From Opitutia bacterium (GTDB taxonomy: Bacteria; Verrucomicrobiota; Verrucomicrobiia; Opitutales; Opitutaceae), in contig JACRHT010000012.1 in the NCBI GenBank assembly GCA_016217545.1, forward strand, positions 62,001-126,000: DNA of 64,000 bases. Reading direction: 5' to 3'. The position numbers and the translations under genes are program-made. Shown one piece after another: positions 6,417 through 42,316 of this stretch; the stretch's first letter is position 1, and each line of letters begins with the position of its first letter. A model generated the notes under the pieces. The model ran no database searches, was not told the origin of the DNA, and saw nothing but the letters and a program-made list of their open reading frames with translations.

Positions 6417-6450
6417 ACAAAAAAAGGCGGCCCGCAACGCGGGCCGCCTT
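6417..6450 (-). terminator. Intrinsic terminator of the second TonB receptor gene
   Basis: On the minus strand a perfect 12-bp stem AAGGCGGCCCGC, with a 3-nt loop, is followed by a run of seven T. It begins about 24 bp after the stop at 6475 and separates the two receptor transcripts. Confidence 0.92.
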
Positions 6451-14407: not shown

Positions 14408-15607
14408 TTAGCTCGCGAGGCGCCCCTTGTATTTCTGCGCGAGTTCGAACGCCATCTCGGCGTCCCGCGCCACCACTGTGAAGTGCCCCATCTTGCGCCC
14501 GACGCGCGGCTCTTCCTTGCCGTAAAGGTGCAAGCGGACGTTCGGCTGCACGAGCAGCGCGTCCCAATTCGGCTCGCCGACGCACTTGCCAGCCGCGTCC
14601 CATTTCCACGCATCGCCGAGGATGTTCACCATCACGACCGGTGAGAGCAGCGTCACCGCGCCGAGCGGCAACCCGCAGATCGCGCGCACCTGCTGCTCGA
14701 ACTGCGAAGTCATGCACGCATCGATCGTGTAGTGGCCGCTGTTGTGCGTGCGCGGCGCGAGCTCGTTGATCAGCACATCGCCCGACCTCGTGACGAAAAA
14801 CTCCACGCCGAGCACGCCGACGAGATCGATCTTCTCCGCGACGAGCCGCGCGAGTTTCTCCGCCTTGGCCAGCACCTCGGCCGGCACGCGCGCGGGCACG
14901 ATCGAGAAATCCAAAATGTGGTTCGTGTGAATGTTCTCCGAGATCGGAAACACGCGCACCGCCGCGCTCGCCGAGCGCGCGACGACGGCGGAAACCTCGC
15001 ACGCGAAATCCACGAACTGCTCGATCACGACCGGATGCCCGGCGAATTTCTTCAGCGCCGCCGGCACGTCGGCCTCGGTCATCACCTTGAGCTGGCCCTT
15101 GCCGTCGTAGCCGAAGTCCGCGGTCTTCACCACGCACGGCACGCCGACCTCGCGGATCGCCGCTTCAAGAATTGTAGCCGGGGTCGCCGACCCCGGTCCG
15201 GGCTCACCGAGCCCGGCTACACCCACCTCCGCGAAACGCGCGTGCGGAAAACCGTTGTCGCGGAGCCAGCGCTTCTCGCGCGAGCGGTTCTGCGTCGTCT
15301 CGAGCACACTCCAGTGCGGGCGCAGTTGCGTGAGCGACTCGATGTGCTTCAGCGGCGCCGCCGGGACGTTTTCGAATTCGTAGGTGACCACGTCGCACTC
15401 GCGCGCGAACGCCGCCAGCGCCGCGAGATCCTCGTAGGGCGCGTTCACTTCCTTGTGCGCGACAGCCCCGGCGGGGCAGTTCGCCTGCGGTTCGTAGACG
15501 TGGATGCGGTAACCGAGCCGCGTCGCCGCGTGCGCGAGCATGCGTCCGAGCTGCCCGCCGCCGAGCACGCCGATCGTTTTTCCGGGGAGAAGAGGAGCTT
15601 TCGTCAC
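14408..15607 (-). CDS. purK: N5-carboxyaminoimidazole ribonucleotide synthase (ATP-grasp), with in-frame palindrome insert
   Basis: A 399-residue enzyme that uses ATP and bicarbonate to carboxylate aminoimidazole ribonucleotide in purine synthesis. I chose a GTG start at 15607. It gives VTKAPLLPGKTIGVLGGGQLGRML, close to other PurK N-termini; the frame extends 14 codons further to a TTG. ATP-grasp motifs include VVTYEFENVP, VVKTADFGYDGKGQ, VIEQFVDFACEVS, GVLGVEFFVT and NELAPRTHNSGHYTIDAC. Residues about 130-145 (VAGLGEPGPGSATPAT) are encoded by a 47-bp twin-hairpin palindrome that seems to have been inserted without shifting the frame, in the loop before the ATP-binding domain. It lies downstream of purE, with a repeat-filled gap that contains the GTG start. 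Confidence 0.94.
   Translation of the reverse strand: MTKAPLLPGKTIGVLGGGQLGRMLAHAATRLGYRIHVYEPQANCPAGAVAHKEVNAPYEDLAALAAFARECDVVTYEFENVPAAPLKHIESLTQLRPHWSVLETTQNRSREKRWLRDNGFPHARFAEVGVAGLGEPGPGSATPATILEAAIREVGVPCVVKTADFGYDGKGQLKVMTEADVPAALKKFAGHPVVIEQFVDFACEVSAVVARSASAAVRVFPISENIHTNHILDFSIVPARVPAEVLAKAEKLARLVAEKIDLVGVLGVEFFVTRSGDVLINELAPRTHNSGHYTIDACMTSQFEQQVRAICGLPLGAVTLLSPVVMVNILGDAWKWDAAGKCVGEPNWDALLVQPNVRLHLYGKEEPRVGRKMGHFTVVARDAEMAFELAQKYKGRLAS
15174..15220. repeat. Twin-hairpin palindromic element inside purK
   Basis: A 47-bp element with ends GTAG...CTAC made of two adjacent hairpins: CCGGGGTC-GCC-GACCCCGG and CCGGGCTC-ACC-GAGCCCGG. The first half is identical to the first half of the element at 41235-41285, which lies in a second coding gene. 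It is read in frame within purK and encodes a Gly/Ala/Pro-rich segment. Confidence 0.85.
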
Positions 15608-15697
15608 AGAGGAAAACCCGAGAGACACAGAGAACACAGAGCCTTTCAATCCAATCCTCAGTGGGCTCCGTGTTCCTCCTTCCGTCTCTGTGTCGAG
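15605..15697. repeat. ACACAGAG-type repeat filling the purE-purK junction
   Basis: The gap consists of repeated words ACAGAG/CACAGAG (GAGACACAGAGAACACAGAG at 15622-15641) followed by an imperfect inverted copy, GGCTCCGTGTTCC...GTCTCTGTGTC (15664-15694). The purK GTG start (15605-15607) is part of the first CACAGAGG word. Similar low-complexity words recur in many bacterial genomes as interspersed repeats. Confidence 0.7.
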
Positions 15698-23834: not shown

Positions 23835-23869
23835 AAGGCGCGCCGCAGAAAAGCGGCGCGCCTTTTTCT
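23835..23869 (+). terminator. Intrinsic terminator after putA
   Basis: A perfect 12-bp stem AAGGCGCGCCGC with loop AGAAAA is followed by TTTCTTT. It lies 72 bp beyond the putA stop. Confidence 0.92.
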
Positions 23870-31966: not shown

Positions 31967-34900
31967 TTATCTCTTCTGCTGCTGGCGCCAGCGGCGGACG
32001 CCGAAGAGCGCGAGACCGGCGCCCATGAGCATCGCGCCGTAAGTGGAGGGCTCGGGAACGGGCCGCCACGGACGGACTTCGTTGCCGTGATCAAAGCCTT
32101 CGGAGGGATAGTCGGTCGTCCAGATCGTGTCGTTGCCGACCCAGGAACCGGACGGGGCGAAAGTGACGAGGTTGAGCGGCGAGGTCGCCTTGTTGCCCGG
32201 ATCGTTCGCCACGATGAAGAGGTCGTTGAAGTCGTTCCAGTTGGCGACGGAGAGCGTGTAAGAGGTGAGCGAGAGCGTCGTGAAGTTAACGACGGAGTCG
32301 GTGCTCGCGAAATCGATGATGGAGTTGCCGGTGACGCTGAGGGTGCCGAAGGTGGTGGTGGTGCCATTGAGCTCGAGGGTGCCGCCGTTGAGCTGGATGT
32401 TGATGCCGGAGTTGTTGAAGTCGGCGCCGAGGCGGAGCGTGGAGCCGGCGTTGACGACGATGGTGCCGGTGCCGAGGAGCTGGGAGACTTCGAGGAGGGA
32501 GAGGCCGCCGTCGAGGGTGAGCGTGGAGTTGCTGCCGAAGTCGAGGGTGCCGAGGCCGGCGAGAGTGCCGATCTTCTGGGCGAAGCCGACGAGCGACATG
32601 GTGGCGCCGCTGTCGATCTGCAGGTCGATGGTGGAGCTGTTGAGGGCGTTGTTGGCGCCCATGGCGAGCGTGCCGGCGGAGACGGTGACGTTGCCGGCGA
32701 AGGTGTTGGTGCTGTTGGAGAGCGTGAGGGTGCCGGCGCCGTCCTTGGTGAGCTGGGAGCTGGCGGTGCCGGTGAGCTGGCCGGCGATGGTGGTGTTGGC
32801 GGCGCCGCCGACGGTGAGGGTGTTGCTGCCGACGGCGACGGTGTTGTTGAGGGCGAGCGAGCCGGCGTCGGTGTTGATGCGGACGTTGGCGTTGGCGATG
32901 GTGATCGCGCCGCCGATGGTATTGTCGCCCGCGATATTGCGGAGAGCGCCGGTGTTGCCGATACCGGTGCCGCTGAGGCTCATGGTCTCGTTGCCGATGG
33001 TGAGATTGGCGCCGCCGTTGTAGTTGATGTCCTTCTGGAGCTGGAGGGCGGCGCCGTCGGCGACGGTGACGCCGGCGACGGTGGTGCCGAGGCCGTAGGT
33101 GTGGCGAACGTTCACGACGCCGGAGTTGATCGTGGTCACGCCGTCATAGGAATTGTTGCCAGTGAGCGTGAGGGTGCCGCTGCCGTCTTTGGTGAGAGTG
33201 CCAGTGCCGGTGCCGATGGCGCCGTTGATCCAGGTGTCGCCGGAGCCGCCAACGGTGAGGTTGCTGTTGTTCGCGCTGGTGACGTTGCCGTTGAGGGTGA
33301 GGCGGTCGGCGTCGGAATTGATGCGGCTGCTGGAGGCGAGGTTGACGATGCCGTTCCAGGTGTTGTTGCCGGCGAGATTGCGGAGGGCGCCGTCGTTGGC
33401 GATGCCGGTGCCGTTGAGCGTGAGGCGCTCGAGGCCGATGGTGACGTCGTTGCCGCCGTTGTAGGCGACGTCCTTCTGGATCTCGAGGGCGGCGCCGTTG
33501 GCGACGGTGGTGCCGGCGTTGACGTCGTTGGAGTTGTGGCCGCCGAGCGCGGTGTCGGTGCGGATGTTGAGGACGCCGGCGTTGACGTTGGTGGCTTCGG
33601 AGTAGGTGTTGTTGCCGGCGAAGGTCATGCGGCCGGCGCCGAGTTTGGTGACGCCGCCGGAGACGACGCTGGCGGTGAACAGCAGGTCGTCGTATTGGGC
33701 GCCGTTGGCGACGGTGATGTTGCGGTTGCCGGCGGCGGGGGTGAGCCAAAATTGGTAGCCGGTGACGGTGGCGGTGTCGGGGGAGGAGCCGACGTTGACG
33801 TCGCCGTTGAGAACGAGGGTGCCGCCCGCGCCGAGGGCGATGGTGCCGCCGTTGAGCGTGAGGCCGTTGATGGTCTCGTAGGTGCTGTTGAGGTTGAACG
33901 TGCCGTAGCGGTTGACGGTGACGTTCACGTTATCCGCAAGTTTTTCGATGCCGTAGCCGGTGGCGTAGAGGAGCGTGGCGGAGTCGGTGCCGTTGCCGAT
34001 GGTGATGTCGCCGCGAATGGTGGTGTTGCGGAAGCCGACGGCGTTGTTGGTGGCGAGGACGAGCGTGCCGCGATTGACGGTGGTGGTGCCGGTGAAATTG
34101 TTCACCTGCCACTGGGAGTTGAGCCAGACTTCGCCGGTGCTGTTCACGACGAGATTGCCGGCGGTGCCGGTGCCCATGGCGCCGATGAACACGGTCTTGC
34201 CGGGGCCGTCGACGGTGAGCGTCTTGGTGCCGAGATCGATCGTGGTGCCGGTGGTGCCGACGTAGAGGCGGTCACCGAGGGTGCCAGAATTGACCGTGCT
34301 GTCGGCAGTGAGAGCGATGTTGCCGTTGAACCAGTTCACGTCGCCGCTGACGTTGCGGAGCGTACCGCCGGCGAGGGTGATGGCGTTGGAGGCGGTGACG
34401 CCGCCGCCTTGGATTTCAAGGGTGGCGCCGGTGTTCACAGTGGCGGAGCCGGAGCCGAGCGAGGTGGCGTTGCGGATGTTGATCGTGCCGCCGGAGACCG
34501 TGGTGTTGCCCGTGTAGTTGTTGGCGGCGGAAAGGGTCAGGGTGCCGGAGCCGGTCTTGGTGAGGCCGCCGGTGTTGGTGTTGGCGAGCGAGGAGGCGAA
34601 GGTAACGTTGTTGCCGTTGGTGTCGACGGCGATGGCGCTGGAGCTGTTGCCGATGCGCGACGAAAGGTCGGTCGTGATGCCGCTGCCGTATTGGAGCGTG
34701 CCGCCGGTGAAACGGACGGTGCCGGCGGTGCCGAGGGCGACGGCGTTGTTGGCGACGACCGTGCCGCCAGCGAGCGTGGTGCCGCCGGTGTAGCTGTTGG
34801 CACCGGAGAGCGTGAGCGTGCCGGCGTCGTTTTTGATGAGGGCGCCGCCGCTGCTGTTGATCTGGCTGGAGAAGGTCGTGTTGCCCGCGCCGGCGATGGT

Positions 34901-36442
34901 GAGGTTGTAGGCACCGAGGTCCGTGTAGGAAGCGAGCGTGAGGCTGCCGGCGGTGGATTTGATGGTGGCGGCGCCGCCCAGCAGGATCTGGCCGCTAAGG
35001 GTGTTCGAACCGGAGAGGTTGTTGATGGCGCCAGCGGAACTGACGCCGGTGCCGGTGATCGTGAAATCGCCCTCGCTGACCGCGATGTTATTGGAAAGCT
35101 CGAGGGTGGCGCCGTTGGCCACGGTGTTGCCGAACGTCGAGGTGCCGAGCGCGCCGCTGTTGGTGATCGCGAGCGTGCCTCCGTTGATGAGTGTGGGGCC
35201 GACGTAGGTGTTCGCGTTGGAGAGAACGAGGCGTCCGGCGCCGGCTTTGGTGAAGTTGGCGTAGTAGGAATTGCTGACGACGCCGGAGAACGTGGTCGTG
35301 CCGGTGTTGTCGACCGTGATCGTGCGGTCGCCGGCGCCGAGACTGAACGTGCCGGAGAGAGTGAGGTCCTGCGAGCCGCCGATGGTGAAATTCGCGTTCG
35401 CGACGGTGTTGTTGGTCAGCGAGCGGGCGCCGCCACTGGCGCTGAGGGTGCCGCCTGCGATCGTGAGGGTCCCGCTGCCGAGCGCAGAGTTATTGCCGAC
35501 GGCGAGGGTGCCGGCGTTGAGGGTCGTGCCGCCCGTGTAGTTGTTGGCGGCGTTGAGGATGAGCGTGCCGGCGCCGGACTTGGTGAGGCCGCCGGTGTTG
35601 GTGTTGGCGAGCGAGGAGGCGAAGGTGACGTTGTTGCCGTTCGTATCGATCGCGATGGCACTGGTGCTGTTGCCGATGCGGGAAGAATAGTCGGTGGTGA
35701 TGCCAGAGCCGTATTGGAGCGTGCCGCCGGTGAAGCGGACGGTGCCGGTGGTGCCGAGGGCGTTCGCGGAATCGGCACGCAGAGTGCCGCCCGCGATGGT
35801 CGTGCCACCGGTATAGCTGTTGTTGCCGGAGAGCACCCAAGTGCTGTTGCCGCTTTTCGTGACCGTGCCGCCCGTGCCGTTGATCGTCGAGCTGACGGTG
35901 CCGAGGCCGGAGCCGTTGCCACCCAGGGTGAGCGTGTTCGTTGCGCTCGTGGTGATGCTGCCGCCGGTCGTGGAAATGGTGAGCGCGCCGGAGCTGCCAA
36001 CGTTGAAACTCGACGCGGCGCCGAGCGTAAGGCGGAAATTGGCACCAGTGAGCGTCTGGCCCGAGTCGTCGTTGTTGGTGATGCCCGTCGCCCCGAGCGT
36101 GTAGGTGCGCGTCGGGCCGCTCGTCTTGCTAATCGTGAAGGCTCCGGCTCCGTTCGCGAAAGTGATGCCACCAATCGTGTAGTTCGAACCGACCGAAATG
36201 GTGCCGCCAGTCGCGCCCCCGATGGAGGCGAACTCGCCGACCGCGTTGACGACGTTGTTGCCGGACCAATTGGTAGTCGTATCCCAGTTGCCGCCACCTG
36301 CCGGCAACCAATTCACAGTCTGCGCGGGCAACGACGCCGCGAGCCACGCCATCGATCCCAATACCGCCGCAGAAAACCGCACACCACGGAGCGCAATTCT
36401 CCGGAGCAGGGCGTCGGCAATAGCAGTGGAGCGGGCGCGCAT
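31967..36442 (-). CDS. Autotransporter-type beta-strand repeat protein with PEP-CTERM sorting signal
   Basis: A 1491-residue surface protein. Residues 1-41 form a long signal peptide (…MAWLAASLPAQ). The body is a Gly/Asn/Thr-rich right-handed beta-helix of autotransporter-associated repeats. Typical units are 'GAGTLTLSGNNSYTGGTT' and 'GGTLRADSANALG', repeated about every 20-40 residues. A stretch near residues 200-300 is almost duplicated at the DNA level about 340 residues later. The C-terminus is a PEP-CTERM tail: VPEPSTYGAM, a hydrophobic helix, then RRWRQQQKR. Such proteins are exported and processed by exosortase; none is in the window. Role probably cell surface or biofilm matrix. It is divergent from the Ig-like protein gene at 36649. 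Confidence 0.93.
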   Translation of the reverse strand: MRARSTAIADALLRRIALRGVRFSAAVLGSMAWLAASLPAQTVNWLPAGGGNWDTTTNWSGNNVVNAVGEFASIGGATGGTISVGSNYTIGGITFANGAGAFTISKTSGPTRTYTLGATGITNNDDSGQTLTGANFRLTLGAASSFNVGSSGALTISTTGGSITTSATNTLTLGGNGSGLGTVSSTINGTGGTVTKSGNSTWVLSGNNSYTGGTTIAGGTLRADSANALGTTGTVRFTGGTLQYGSGITTDYSSRIGNSTSAIAIDTNGNNVTFASSLANTNTGGLTKSGAGTLILNAANNYTGGTTLNAGTLAVGNNSALGSGTLTIAGGTLSASGGARSLTNNTVANANFTIGGSQDLTLSGTFSLGAGDRTITVDNTGTTTFSGVVSNSYYANFTKAGAGRLVLSNANTYVGPTLINGGTLAITNSGALGTSTFGNTVANGATLELSNNIAVSEGDFTITGTGVSSAGAINNLSGSNTLSGQILLGGAATIKSTAGSLTLASYTDLGAYNLTIAGAGNTTFSSQINSSGGALIKNDAGTLTLSGANSYTGGTTLAGGTVVANNAVALGTAGTVRFTGGTLQYGSGITTDLSSRIGNSSSAIAVDTNGNNVTFASSLANTNTGGLTKTGSGTLTLSAANNYTGNTTVSGGTINIRNATSLGSGSATVNTGATLEIQGGGVTASNAITLAGGTLRNVSGDVNWFNGNIALTADSTVNSGTLGDRLYVGTTGTTIDLGTKTLTVDGPGKTVFIGAMGTGTAGNLVVNSTGEVWLNSQWQVNNFTGTTTVNRGTLVLATNNAVGFRNTTIRGDITIGNGTDSATLLYATGYGIEKLADNVNVTVNRYGTFNLNSTYETINGLTLNGGTIALGAGGTLVLNGDVNVGSSPDTATVTGYQFWLTPAAGNRNITVANGAQYDDLLFTASVVSGGVTKLGAGRMTFAGNNTYSEATNVNAGVLNIRTDTALGGHNSNDVNAGTTVANGAALEIQKDVAYNGGNDVTIGLERLTLNGTGIANDGALRNLAGNNTWNGIVNLASSSRINSDADRLTLNGNVTSANNSNLTVGGSGDTWINGAIGTGTGTLTKDGSGTLTLTGNNSYDGVTTINSGVVNVRHTYGLGTTVAGVTVADGAALQLQKDINYNGGANLTIGNETMSLSGTGIGNTGALRNIAGDNTIGGAITIANANVRINTDAGSLALNNTVAVGSNTLTVGGAANTTIAGQLTGTASSQLTKDGAGTLTLSNSTNTFAGNVTVSAGTLAMGANNALNSSTIDLQIDSGATMSLVGFAQKIGTLAGLGTLDFGSNSTLTLDGGLSLLEVSQLLGTGTIVVNAGSTLRLGADFNNSGINIQLNGGTLELNGTTTTFGTLSVTGNSIIDFASTDSVVNFTTLSLTSYTLSVANWNDFNDLFIVANDPGNKATSPLNLVTFAPSGSWVGNDTIWTTDYPSEGFDHGNEVRPWRPVPEPSTYGAMLMGAGLALFGVRRWRQQQKR
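34511..34814. repeat. Long internal direct repeat, copy A, in the PEP-CTERM gene
   Basis: This roughly 300-bp block is highly similar to 35534-35837 at an offset of 1023 bp (341 codons, in frame). It includes the shared protein phrases FTGGTLQYGSGITTD and NGNNVTFASSLANTNTGGLT. The high DNA identity suggests recent duplication or gene conversion. Confidence 0.85.
35534..35837. repeat. Long internal direct repeat, copy B, in the PEP-CTERM gene
   Basis: Partner of the block at 34511-34814, at an exact 1023-bp offset and in the same frame. Differences are mostly third-position changes plus a few substitutions, such as TTDYSSRIGNS versus TTDLSSRIGNS. Confidence 0.85.
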
Positions 36443-38585: not shown

Positions 38586-38613
38586 AAGGCACGGCCCGCG
38601 CCGTGCCTTTTTT
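38586..38613 (+). terminator. Intrinsic terminator of the Ig-like protein gene
   Basis: A perfect 10-bp stem AAGGCACGGC with loop CCGC is followed by a T-run. It overlaps the last bases of the convergent gene, whose stop codon is at 38612-38614. Confidence 0.9.
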
Positions 38614-40166: not shown

Positions 40167-42005
40167 TCAATGCCCCGCGCCGGCCGAGTGCTCCTGGATG
40201 TATTCGTTCTTCAGGCCGAGCGTCTCCGGCGCGTGCAGCACGAGCATCTTCATGCGGATGTCGCCCGGCACCTTCGCCGCCGTGAGCTTCGAGACGACGA
40301 TCATCAGTGTGATCGCCAGCGGGACCGTCCAGATCGCCGGCTGCTCGCACAGGATGCGGAGCAGCGGATGCTCTTTCCAAAACGCGTTCATCGGCGCGAA
40401 GCCCGCGAACAGCTTCCCCATCGGCCCCTTGTCGAGCGCGAGATTGCTGATGTTGACGACCGTCGCCGCGCCGAGCGCGAACAACCCGCCGCTCAACATG
40501 CCCGTCGCCGCGCCGGTCATCGTCATGCCACGCCACCACACGCTCATGAACAGCAGCGGGAAATAGCTCGCCGCTGCGATCGCGAACGCCTGGCCGACCA
40601 TGAAATTGATCTCGAGCGGCTCGACAAAACAGCCGAGCCCGATTGCCACGGCGCCGATGGCGACCGCCGCGATCTTGAACATCCGCAACCGCTCCTCCGC
40701 CGTCGCGTGCGGCTTGAGCATGCGCCCGTAGACGTCGTGCGCCAACGCACCCGTCATCGAGACGAGCAATCCACTAAACGTGCTCATGAACGCCGCGAAC
40801 GCACCCGCGCACGTGATGCCGCTCAAAATGCTGCCCCACACGCCGCCGACCACACGCGGCAACTCGAGCACGATCTTGTCCGTGCCCTTCGCGCCGGCGC
40901 CCGCGTAGAGCTCGGGCAGCAAATTTCTGCCGATCACACCGAACACCGGCGGGAACACGTAGAAAATGCCGATCAAGATCATCACCCACATCGTCGTGCG
41001 CTTCGCCGCCACGCCGTCGGGGTTCGTGTAGAACCGCACCAGGATGTGGGGCAATCCCGCCGTGCCGCACACCAGCGCGATGATCAGCGAGTAAGTGTAG
41101 AGCAGCGAATACGGCCGCGCTTGTTCCGCGTTCAGACCCGCCGCCTTCGCCGCCTTCGTCGTCAGCGGTCCGAACGGCGAAACCCACGCGGTGTCCGCCG
41201 GGGCTTTTTCCACCAGCGGCTTCCGCTCGACGCTGTAGCCGGGGTCGCCGACCCCGGCCCGGCCAGCCTCAACGAGGCCGGCTACAGTGGCGGCCGGTTT
41301 CGCCGCCGCGAGCGCGCGACCGTCGTTCGCCCCGACGTGCGCACCGTAGAACCCGTAAACCGACATCAGCACGAACACCGGCACGCTGATCGCGAACATC
41401 TTCATCCAATACTGGAACGCCTGCACCAGCGTGATGCCCTTCATGCCACCGAGCGCGACGTTCAGCGTGATCACCGCACCGACCGCCACCACGCCGACCC
41501 AGTAAGGCAGGCCGGGGAAAATGTAGGCCAGCGTCGTGCCCGCGCCCTTCATCTGCGGCATCGTGTAGAAAAACCCGATGAACAGCACGAAGCACACCGC
41601 GATTTTCCGGAACAGCGGCGAGTCGAACCGACCCTCCGCGAAATCCGGGATCGTATACGCGCCAAACCGCCGCAGCGGCCCCGCGATAAACAACAGCAGG
41701 AAAAGGTAGCCGCACGCGTAACACACCGGATACCACAACGCGTCGTAGCCGCTCGACATCACCATGCCCGCGATGCCCATGAACGACGCCGCGGAAAGAT
41801 ACTCGCCGGAAATCGCCGACGCGTTCCATCCGACCGACACCGAGCGGCCCGCGACAAAGAAGTCGCTCGCCGTCTTCGACGTTTTCGCTGAGCGGAAACC
41901 CATCCACACCGTCACGGCGACCGTGACGAACGAGAATCCGAAAATCCACGGATCGACGCCGCCGAGCATGCCGGTCGCGGCCACGAAAAGAGGCAGCGCG
42001 CTCAT
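40167..42005 (-). CDS. Sodium:solute symporter (SSS family, ActP-like), with in-frame palindrome insert
   Basis: A 612-residue inner membrane transporter with about 13-14 helices. It resembles acetate/monocarboxylate ActP-type members: FFVAGRSVSVGWNASAISGEYLSAASF is the family's characteristic start (shortened here to its core GRSVSVGWNASAISGEYLSA), followed by GITLVQAFQYW, GLPHILVRFYTNPDG and FSGLLVSMTGALAHDVY. The start at 42005 overlaps the stop of a DUF485-type gene (ATGA). Residues about 241-257 (VAGLVEAGRAGVGDPGY) are encoded by a 51-bp twin-hairpin palindrome in a loop between membrane helices. Substrate is probably a short organic acid (inference). Confidence 0.92.
   Translation of the reverse strand: MSALPLFVAATGMLGGVDPWIFGFSFVTVAVTVWMGFRSAKTSKTASDFFVAGRSVSVGWNASAISGEYLSAASFMGIAGMVMSSGYDALWYPVCYACGYLFLLLFIAGPLRRFGAYTIPDFAEGRFDSPLFRKIAVCFVLFIGFFYTMPQMKGAGTTLAYIFPGLPYWVGVVAVGAVITLNVALGGMKGITLVQAFQYWMKMFAISVPVFVLMSVYGFYGAHVGANDGRALAAAKPAATVAGLVEAGRAGVGDPGYSVERKPLVEKAPADTAWVSPFGPLTTKAAKAAGLNAEQARPYSLLYTYSLIIALVCGTAGLPHILVRFYTNPDGVAAKRTTMWVMILIGIFYVFPPVFGVIGRNLLPELYAGAGAKGTDKIVLELPRVVGGVWGSILSGITCAGAFAAFMSTFSGLLVSMTGALAHDVYGRMLKPHATAEERLRMFKIAAVAIGAVAIGLGCFVEPLEINFMVGQAFAIAAASYFPLLFMSVWWRGMTMTGAATGMLSGGLFALGAATVVNISNLALDKGPMGKLFAGFAPMNAFWKEHPLLRILCEQPAIWTVPLAITLMIVVSKLTAAKVPGDIRMKMLVLHAPETLGLKNEYIQEHSAGAGH
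41235..41285. repeat. Twin-hairpin palindromic element inside the symporter gene
   Basis: A 51-bp element with ends GTAG...CTAC. The first hairpin, CCGGGGTC-GCC-GACCCCGG, is identical to that of the element in purK (15174-15220). The second is CCAGCCTC-AAC-GAGGCCGG. The frame is kept through the gene. Confidence 0.85.
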
Positions 42006-42316
42006 TGTTCCGCCCTCCCCTTCTTCACCTGCTCGACCTCGTCCTGCTCGAGCCACATCGAGCGACGGATGAAAAACCACGAGATGCCCCACACCGCCGG
42101 GAAGAACAACACGCCGAGCAGCAGCCAGCTCAACGTGAAACCCGCGATGCGCGTCGCCATCAGCTGCGGCGCGAAATAGTTGGCGAGCGGGAGACCGAAC
42201 AACACGACCAGGAAGGCCGCGGCGCAGGCGATGGACAACTTCAGTTGGCGGCGCATGAGCGTATGGAGAAACGCTTCGCTGTGCACCGCGTCGTCATGGG
42301 GTATCGGGGCAGGCAT
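42002..42316 (-). CDS. DUF485-type small membrane protein (YjcH-like)
   Basis: A 104-residue protein with two membrane helices (LSIACAAAFLVVLFGLPLANYF and FTLSWLLLGVLFFPAVWGISW). A short charged C-terminus follows (FIRRSMWLEQDEVEQVKKG). This is the layout of DUF485/YjcH proteins, which are regularly encoded just upstream of ActP-type symporters and are thought to assist them. Its stop overlaps the symporter start by 4 bp, so the two are coupled. A perfect 17-bp inverted repeat lies 33 bp upstream of its ATG. Confidence 0.85.
   Translation of the reverse strand: MPAPIPHDDAVHSEAFLHTLMRRQLKLSIACAAAFLVVLFGLPLANYFAPQLMATRIAGFTLSWLLLGVLFFPAVWGISWFFIRRSMWLEQDEVEQVKKGRAEQ

Follow-up and report, generated by a model that had tools for sequence, protein, structure and literature searches.

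The 47-bp palindromic element inside the purK gene of the window analysed here, a stretch of 64,000 nucleotides from a Verrucomicrobia bacterium, is almost certainly a mobile REP doublet whose in-frame insertion is specific to this lineage. In the reading that we hold with high confidence, it is a non-autonomous GTAG REP doublet (a heterodimer of the BIME/REPIN kind), spread by a RAYT and surviving in frame in permissive protein loops. The established parts of this reading are a repeat family, a RAYT gene flanked by REPs of that family, an insertion in PurK confined to one lineage and a single open frame used in all host genes.

Results

The purK element and its second copy

The features on which the analysis rests are as follows.

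14408..15649, minus strand: purK, 5-(carboxyamino)imidazole ribonucleotide synthase, the host gene (NCBIfam models)
15173..15220, minus strand: 48-nt coding block, translated as VAGLGEPGPGSATPAT, PurK residues 144-159
15174..15220, minus strand: 47-bp head-to-head REP doublet of two 23-nt GTAG-tagged half-REPs with a 1-bp spacer
15174..15196, plus strand: half-REP of GGTC type, identical to 41235-41257
15198..15220, minus strand: half-REP of GCTC type
40170..42293, minus strand: sodium/solute-symporter-like open frame hosting the second element (280.6 bits for the best model, under the cut-off of 320.75)
41235..41285, minus strand: second REP doublet, 51 bp, in frame as VAGLVEAGRAGVGDPGY in the sodium/solute-symporter-like gene

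The letters at 15174-15220 agree with the preliminary description of a 47-bp element with GTAG/CTAC ends and two perfect 8-bp palindromes. Its layout is GTAG + CCGGGGTC-gcc-GACCCCGG, one base, and CCGGGCTC-acc-GAGCCCGG + CTAC; each 23-nt half-REP comprises a 4-nt tag, a perfect 8-bp stem and a 3-nt loop, with the GTAG tags outermost, and the two halves differ in stem sequence (GGTC type vs GCTC type). The element thus has the unpaired GTAG at one end of a short palindrome by which a REP is recognized. Since 16 residues need 48 nt, the coding block is 15173-15220, and the last codon of the segment, ACA, uses the base adjoining the element. The description had also spoken of twin hairpins, which holds for the two stems in DNA but not for the predicted RNA of the purK copy, a single long bulged hairpin at -38 kcal/mol (z -4.5), a stability that 0 of 200 shuffles reached; for the 41235 copy two hairpins are predicted (z -3.3), with 2 of 200 shuffles reaching their stability. 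The claim that the first half recurs in another coding gene was borne out, as 41235-41257 matches it at 23 of 23 bases inside a second minus-strand ORF. In 100 shuffled versions of the window neither half was matched, even with ≤3 mismatches allowed, and these shuffles together with a genome-wide reversed control rule out chance as the source of the repeat.

Elsewhere in the window, positions 32300-35910 hold a long series of internal repeats that have diverged from one another, among them 22 copies of a 52-nt unit; most spacings are multiples of three, and the stretch is probably coding. Strong GC-rich hairpins beside A/T runs lie at 1277-1300, 6424-6450, 23835-23864 and 38586-38609; they are terminator-like and unlike the REP family.

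The insertion in PurK

The host ORF exceeds the cut-off of five NCBIfam purK models. In an alignment with 109 other PurK loci (85 distinct proteins; the loci come from two overlapping collections in which some genomes occur twice), the 16-residue segment was missing from 109 of 109 while conserved residues flanked the site, the result that the preliminary description had anticipated for an insertion; the segment was not seen with unrelated codons in distant PurK proteins, as would be expected of ordinary protein sequence. The 16 columns hold 3 residues in 102 loci, 2 in 5 and 12 unrelated ones in 2. Two PurK proteins of the same genus read FAEV-A-A-(D/G)-G-D-L where the window PurK reads FAEV-G[VAGLGEPGPGSATPAT]I-L, which makes it 13 residues longer than in these two nearest relatives. 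That the gain is 13 rather than 16 means that some local residues were replaced too and that the insertion is not clean. In an AlphaFold model of PurK with a mean pLDDT of 88.6, the segment lies in a loop of lower confidence (means of 62 for residues 141-150 and 65 for residues 151-160, against 96 and 92 in the adjoining blocks), and it is predicted to lengthen the loop that joins strand 139-142 to helix 157-168.

A repeat family in genes across the genome

A strict half-REP pattern matched 79 times in the 5.09-Mb genome and 0 times in the reversed control, and a looser one (≤3 mismatches) 172 times vs 16 in the control; in both counts a single palindrome may score on both strands. We studied the window and 45 fetched stretches, which cover all strict matches plus those looser ones, out of 172, that were among the matches listed. 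In these stretches 114 half-REPs form 64 groups, with inverted doublets as the common arrangement (50 head-to-head doublets, 14 singles). A genome-wide count of copies inside genes, which had been proposed as a check on the element, gave 29 doublets and 3 single REPs read in frame, or 32 elements in 27 ORFs. Whether an element lay in a gene was judged from codon usage, with long open frames of the fetched stretches as the training set; the score alone admitted 26 doublets, and reading of the frames brought in 6 more elements (the doublets of L062, L063 and L072, and the three single REPs).

An NCBIfam scan of PurK and 18 more of the 27 host ORFs placed above model cut-off PurL (two elements), IleS, UvrA, MurF, SucB, dihydrolipoyl dehydrogenase, monomeric isocitrate dehydrogenase (a doublet and a single), RecD2 (two) and HrpA, among others; NuoG-like and rRNA-methyltransferase-like hosts had matches below cut-off.

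Across the family Opitutaceae, the pattern at ≤1 mismatch occurred in 63 of 200 genomes, the window genome included, with 0 to 160 matches per genome. Among nine sampled congeners besides G000, seven had ≤2 matches and the others 6 and 7; given this patchiness even within the genus, the copies of the window genome are mostly a feature of its own lineage.

One reading frame and the inserted unit

All 32 in-gene elements read GTA GCC GGG or a close mutant of this, with GTA always a codon, and the strict automatic classifier alone placed 26 of 26 in phase 0. The second frame always contains a stop, the TAG of the tag. The third frame contains one in 18 of 32 elements (TGA in the loop where examined) and is open, yet never used on the coding strand, in the other 14. 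These 14 unused open frames count against frame survival as the whole account unless the stop was lost after insertion: a change such as that from GCT-GAC to GCC-GAC is silent in the used frame, removes the third-frame stop and may post-date insertion.

The bases around the 29 in-gene doublets also followed a pattern, with T before and A after in 29 of 29 and CT before in 22 of 29, whereas NNT codons make up 7.5% of the training set. Doublet length was 2 mod 3 in 25 of 29, such that the doublet plus A makes whole codons; the remaining 4 break this rule and count against the favoured reading. These features point to a moved unit of GTAG...CTAC plus A, of 48 nt or 16 codons (or 51, 54 or 66 nt), inserted after CT. 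No clean empty site occurred among the relatives' sites listed, where apparently empty relatives differed in length by 39, 42, 45, 54, 57 or 63 nt rather than by a constant 48; this too counts against the favoured reading, and the sites listed yielded no exact empty site to define the inserted bases.

Short and long doublets

Doublets fell into two classes by spacer length. With a spacer of ≤20 bp, 29 of 32 were in frame in genes, and among longer doublets 0 of 18; put the other way, the short spacer was present in all 29 in-gene doublets and in only 3 of the 21 not in genes (Fisher p 7e-11). The strict classifier gave 26 in and 6 out for the short class and 0 in and 18 out for the long class, 'out' meaning that an in-frame reading was not established, which does not equal proven intergenic. 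Fourteen doublets were exactly 77 bp long, and in most of these, as well as in several variants, conserved AT-rich sequence adjoins the GTAG ends on the outside (TTTTCAAAAATAAT...AGAAAAACAG). The 77-bp doublets behave as a separate longer unit, and a single repeat class is ruled out by these flanked doublets, none of which is read in frame in genes. This class (L045-L083, e.g. L074:3099-3175 and L053:4274-4350) has a conserved 31-bp spacer and resembles a MITE-sized unit.

Mean pairwise difference was 12% among in-gene 47-bp doublets and 13% among 77-bp doublets, a near-equal divergence that speaks against a simple age argument. A bias towards genes could possibly arise through loss, with intergenic copies freely deletable and in-gene copies deletable only in whole codons. 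In a distant family member, G003, 4 of 17 short doublets passed the in-gene test, each of them in the same frame, and 13 gave no or an unsure result (loci of the first 30 of 160 matches, codon model trained on the window's genome), against 26 of 32 in the window genome by the same strict test; gene-only location as a general trait of short doublets is weakened accordingly.

The same loops in congeners

We searched two same-genus genomes, G096 and G040, for 30 of the 31 sites besides purK, leaving out L076; with purK, 30 of the 32 sites were comparable, the protein after the element of L062 being too short to place. With the window element removed, a relative was scored for extra residues (≥8) within 10 residues of the site, and genes with two sites were counted per site. 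Extra residues stood at the same loop in 22 of 30 sites in G096 (0.9 expected) and 12 of 30 in G040 (0.4 expected), the expectations being derived from the 27 and 11 indels in the rest of those aligned proteins. An inverted repeat of at least 8 bp was present in 15 of 24 segments of at least 8 residues in G096, where length-matched controls gave 15%, and in 3 of 17 in G040, where they gave 6%; the segments without one, 9 of 24 and 14 of 17, do not fit a palindrome-only account. The PurK, symporter, IleS, rRNA-methyltransferase-like and isocitrate dehydrogenase sites had ≤3 residues over the element-free window protein in both congeners.

The NuoG-like site alone carries the same REP family in G096 (L257 vs L068:3086-3135), at the same place in two species with differing loop and spacer bases; the other sites differ. 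Palindromes of other families at shared loops include GTAGCGCCGGTCTCCGACCGGCG and GGAGCGGCTTTACGCCGC. In G096 both also flank RAYT-type genes of their own, and one of these genes (L312) scores 75.8, below the cut-off of 80. The GGAGCGGCTTTACGCCGC family (loci L318-L337, L312) matches 379 times in G096, where a RAYT-type gene lies amid its copies, and 0 times in two further genomes of the genus. That it lies mainly in genes was unsupported, at 0 of 12 distinct places from the loci of the first 20 of 379 matches; nonetheless its copies occur at three of the compared loops. CTCAACT-like repeats are present in some congener loop segments, and such heptanucleotide repeats (L291, L266, L295, L078:4414-4450) form in-frame linkers of QLSTLNS type at or beside REP loops.

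These comparisons raise a wider idea, which we offer tentatively and think somewhat doubtful: certain protein loops in this genus may be standing landing pads, the same loop being entered by different RAYT/REP families in different species, with the families replacing each other in frame and the reading frame acting as a ratchet. Intergenic copies would be deleted, and copies in genes, lost only in whole codons, would accumulate.

The congener sites also bear on whether the in-gene hairpins are kept for a function, such as slowing ribosomes at domain boundaries or adjusting mRNA stability, with the peptide a by-product. The predicted mRNA structures are very stable, 29 of 32 short doublets of the window genome are in genes, and, despite differences in sequence, 51 of 58 in-gene half-REPs keep a perfect stem, as do 31 of the 42 other half-REPs. 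Yet in the congeners the sites are variously empty, occupied by other palindromes or filled with extra residues that contain no palindrome, so no particular hairpin is conserved; the host proteins are unrelated to one another, and only 4 of 17 short doublets of G003 pass the in-gene test. We judge retention for function improbable.

A RAYT gene among the repeats

Of ten matches to Y1 transposases in the genome, one sits between GTAG REPs of the purK-element family. This ORF, L082:3160-3621, exceeds the cut-off of the REP-associated tyrosine transposase model (113.9 bits, cut-off 80), with a REP doublet upstream and a REP beginning two bases past its stop codon. Its letters include an HUH motif and a Y...NP.RA motif. 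For three families in the genus, REPs lie next to a RAYT-type gene; L039 and L317, RAYT-type genes of two species flanked by GGCCCGCGTCCCCGCGGGCC-type palindromes, mark a further REP family.

From this proximity, mobilization by a Y1 HUH nuclease of RAYT/TnpA-REP type seems the likely route. Such a nuclease would spread the non-autonomous GTAG doublets through the genome, inserting the unit GTAG...CTAC plus A into single-stranded DNA on the 3' side of a CT/T dinucleotide. Copies arriving in another frame would meet the TAG of the tag, or often the third-frame stop, and be lost; the survivors would be those read in frame within surface loops that tolerate them, presumably at little cost or benefit to the host.

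The repeats might instead have spread without a RAYT, for instance by template switching or gene conversion between existing palindromes, a route that would suit the lack of clean empty sites among those listed and the perfect pairing of differing stems. It has little to recommend it given three families in the genus with REPs adjoining a RAYT-type gene, and given a constant tag, constant T/A flanks and a near-constant unit length, and we prefer RAYT-driven spread. That the segment is ordinary PurK sequence, as its open frame, the varying loop length among PurK proteins and a longer unrelated loop at its position in L109 and L148 (PurK loci of identical sequence) might suggest, is ruled out by the PurK alignment, with the segment missing from all other loci, and by the identity in DNA of 23 nt to the copy in an unrelated gene.

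Discussion

Transposable palindromes thus add peptides to core enzymes outside Rickettsia (PurK, PurL twice, IleS, UvrA, MurF and isocitrate dehydrogenase), here with a RAYT as their likely transposase, and loop insertions in such proteins may be repeats rather than adaptations. The unrelated palindrome families that hit the same loops in congeners offer a concrete system in which to ask how selfish DNA shapes protein loops. If the landing-pad idea is true, mobile palindromes steadily rewrite loop length in core enzymes. In the open-licence literature we found no account of the single reading frame, the two length classes or multi-family hot spots in Opitutaceae, nor of multi-family loop hot spots beyond one case, the recB genes of two Xanthomonas species with different REPs at about the same site (PMC3733652). 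Part of the pattern may already be in print, for example in the list of intragenic elements of O. terrae.

Rickettsia RPE, to which the preliminary description had likened the element as a separate example, are also palindromes translated in frame inside unrelated genes, but they measure about 150 bp or, in RPE-4/RPE-6, bear a CGTC tag, a class said to be without a dedicated transposase (PMC3733652, PMC10969869); the GTAG tag and 47-bp unit rule out membership. As an in-frame palindrome the element does stand beside RPE, but it is not an isolated case, intragenic GTAG REP dimers having already been described (PMC3733652).

Like the REPINs and RAYTs of Pseudomonas, the family has a REP doublet as its proposed mobile unit and a RAYT with its own REPs adjoining; the Pseudomonas doublets are described as extragenic, whereas the short class of the window genome lies in coding sequence (PMC3116915, PMC2817692). 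A mainly extragenic location, usual for REPs and REPINs, is not what we found for the short doublets, of which 29 of 32 are in genes, against 0 of 18 longer ones. Since intragenic GTAG REPs are treated as an accepted minority in PMC3733652, the location in genes narrows the fit to REP/REPIN without excluding it.

In form the half-REP resembles that of the Stenotrophomonas REPtron Sm, a 23-nt REP with GTAG, a perfect 8-bp palindrome and a 3-nt loop, whose measured cleavage dinucleotide is CT (PMC8266576). The stem sequence differs, and cutting there is established biochemically (PMC8266576), whereas the RAYT of the window genome is known from sequence.

The closest likeness is to the intragenic GTAG REP dimers that Di Nocera, De Gregorio and Rocco (2013) reported from several bacteria, with most in O. 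terrae (PMC3733652), and the purK element belongs to this already described kind. In O. terrae both uvrA genes carry double inserts. The GTAG-17 elements of this species form head-to-head dimers with a 1-2 bp spacer and share with the present family the outer GTAG tag, this arrangement, insertion into ORFs including uvrA, and association with a RAYT; the likeness rests on spacer and arrangement, set against the description of GTAG-17 rather than its consensus (PMC3733652). Beyond that account (PMC3733652), as far as the part drawn on here extends, go the location of 29 of 32 short doublets in genes, the one reading frame in which they are read and the site-by-site comparison with congeners.
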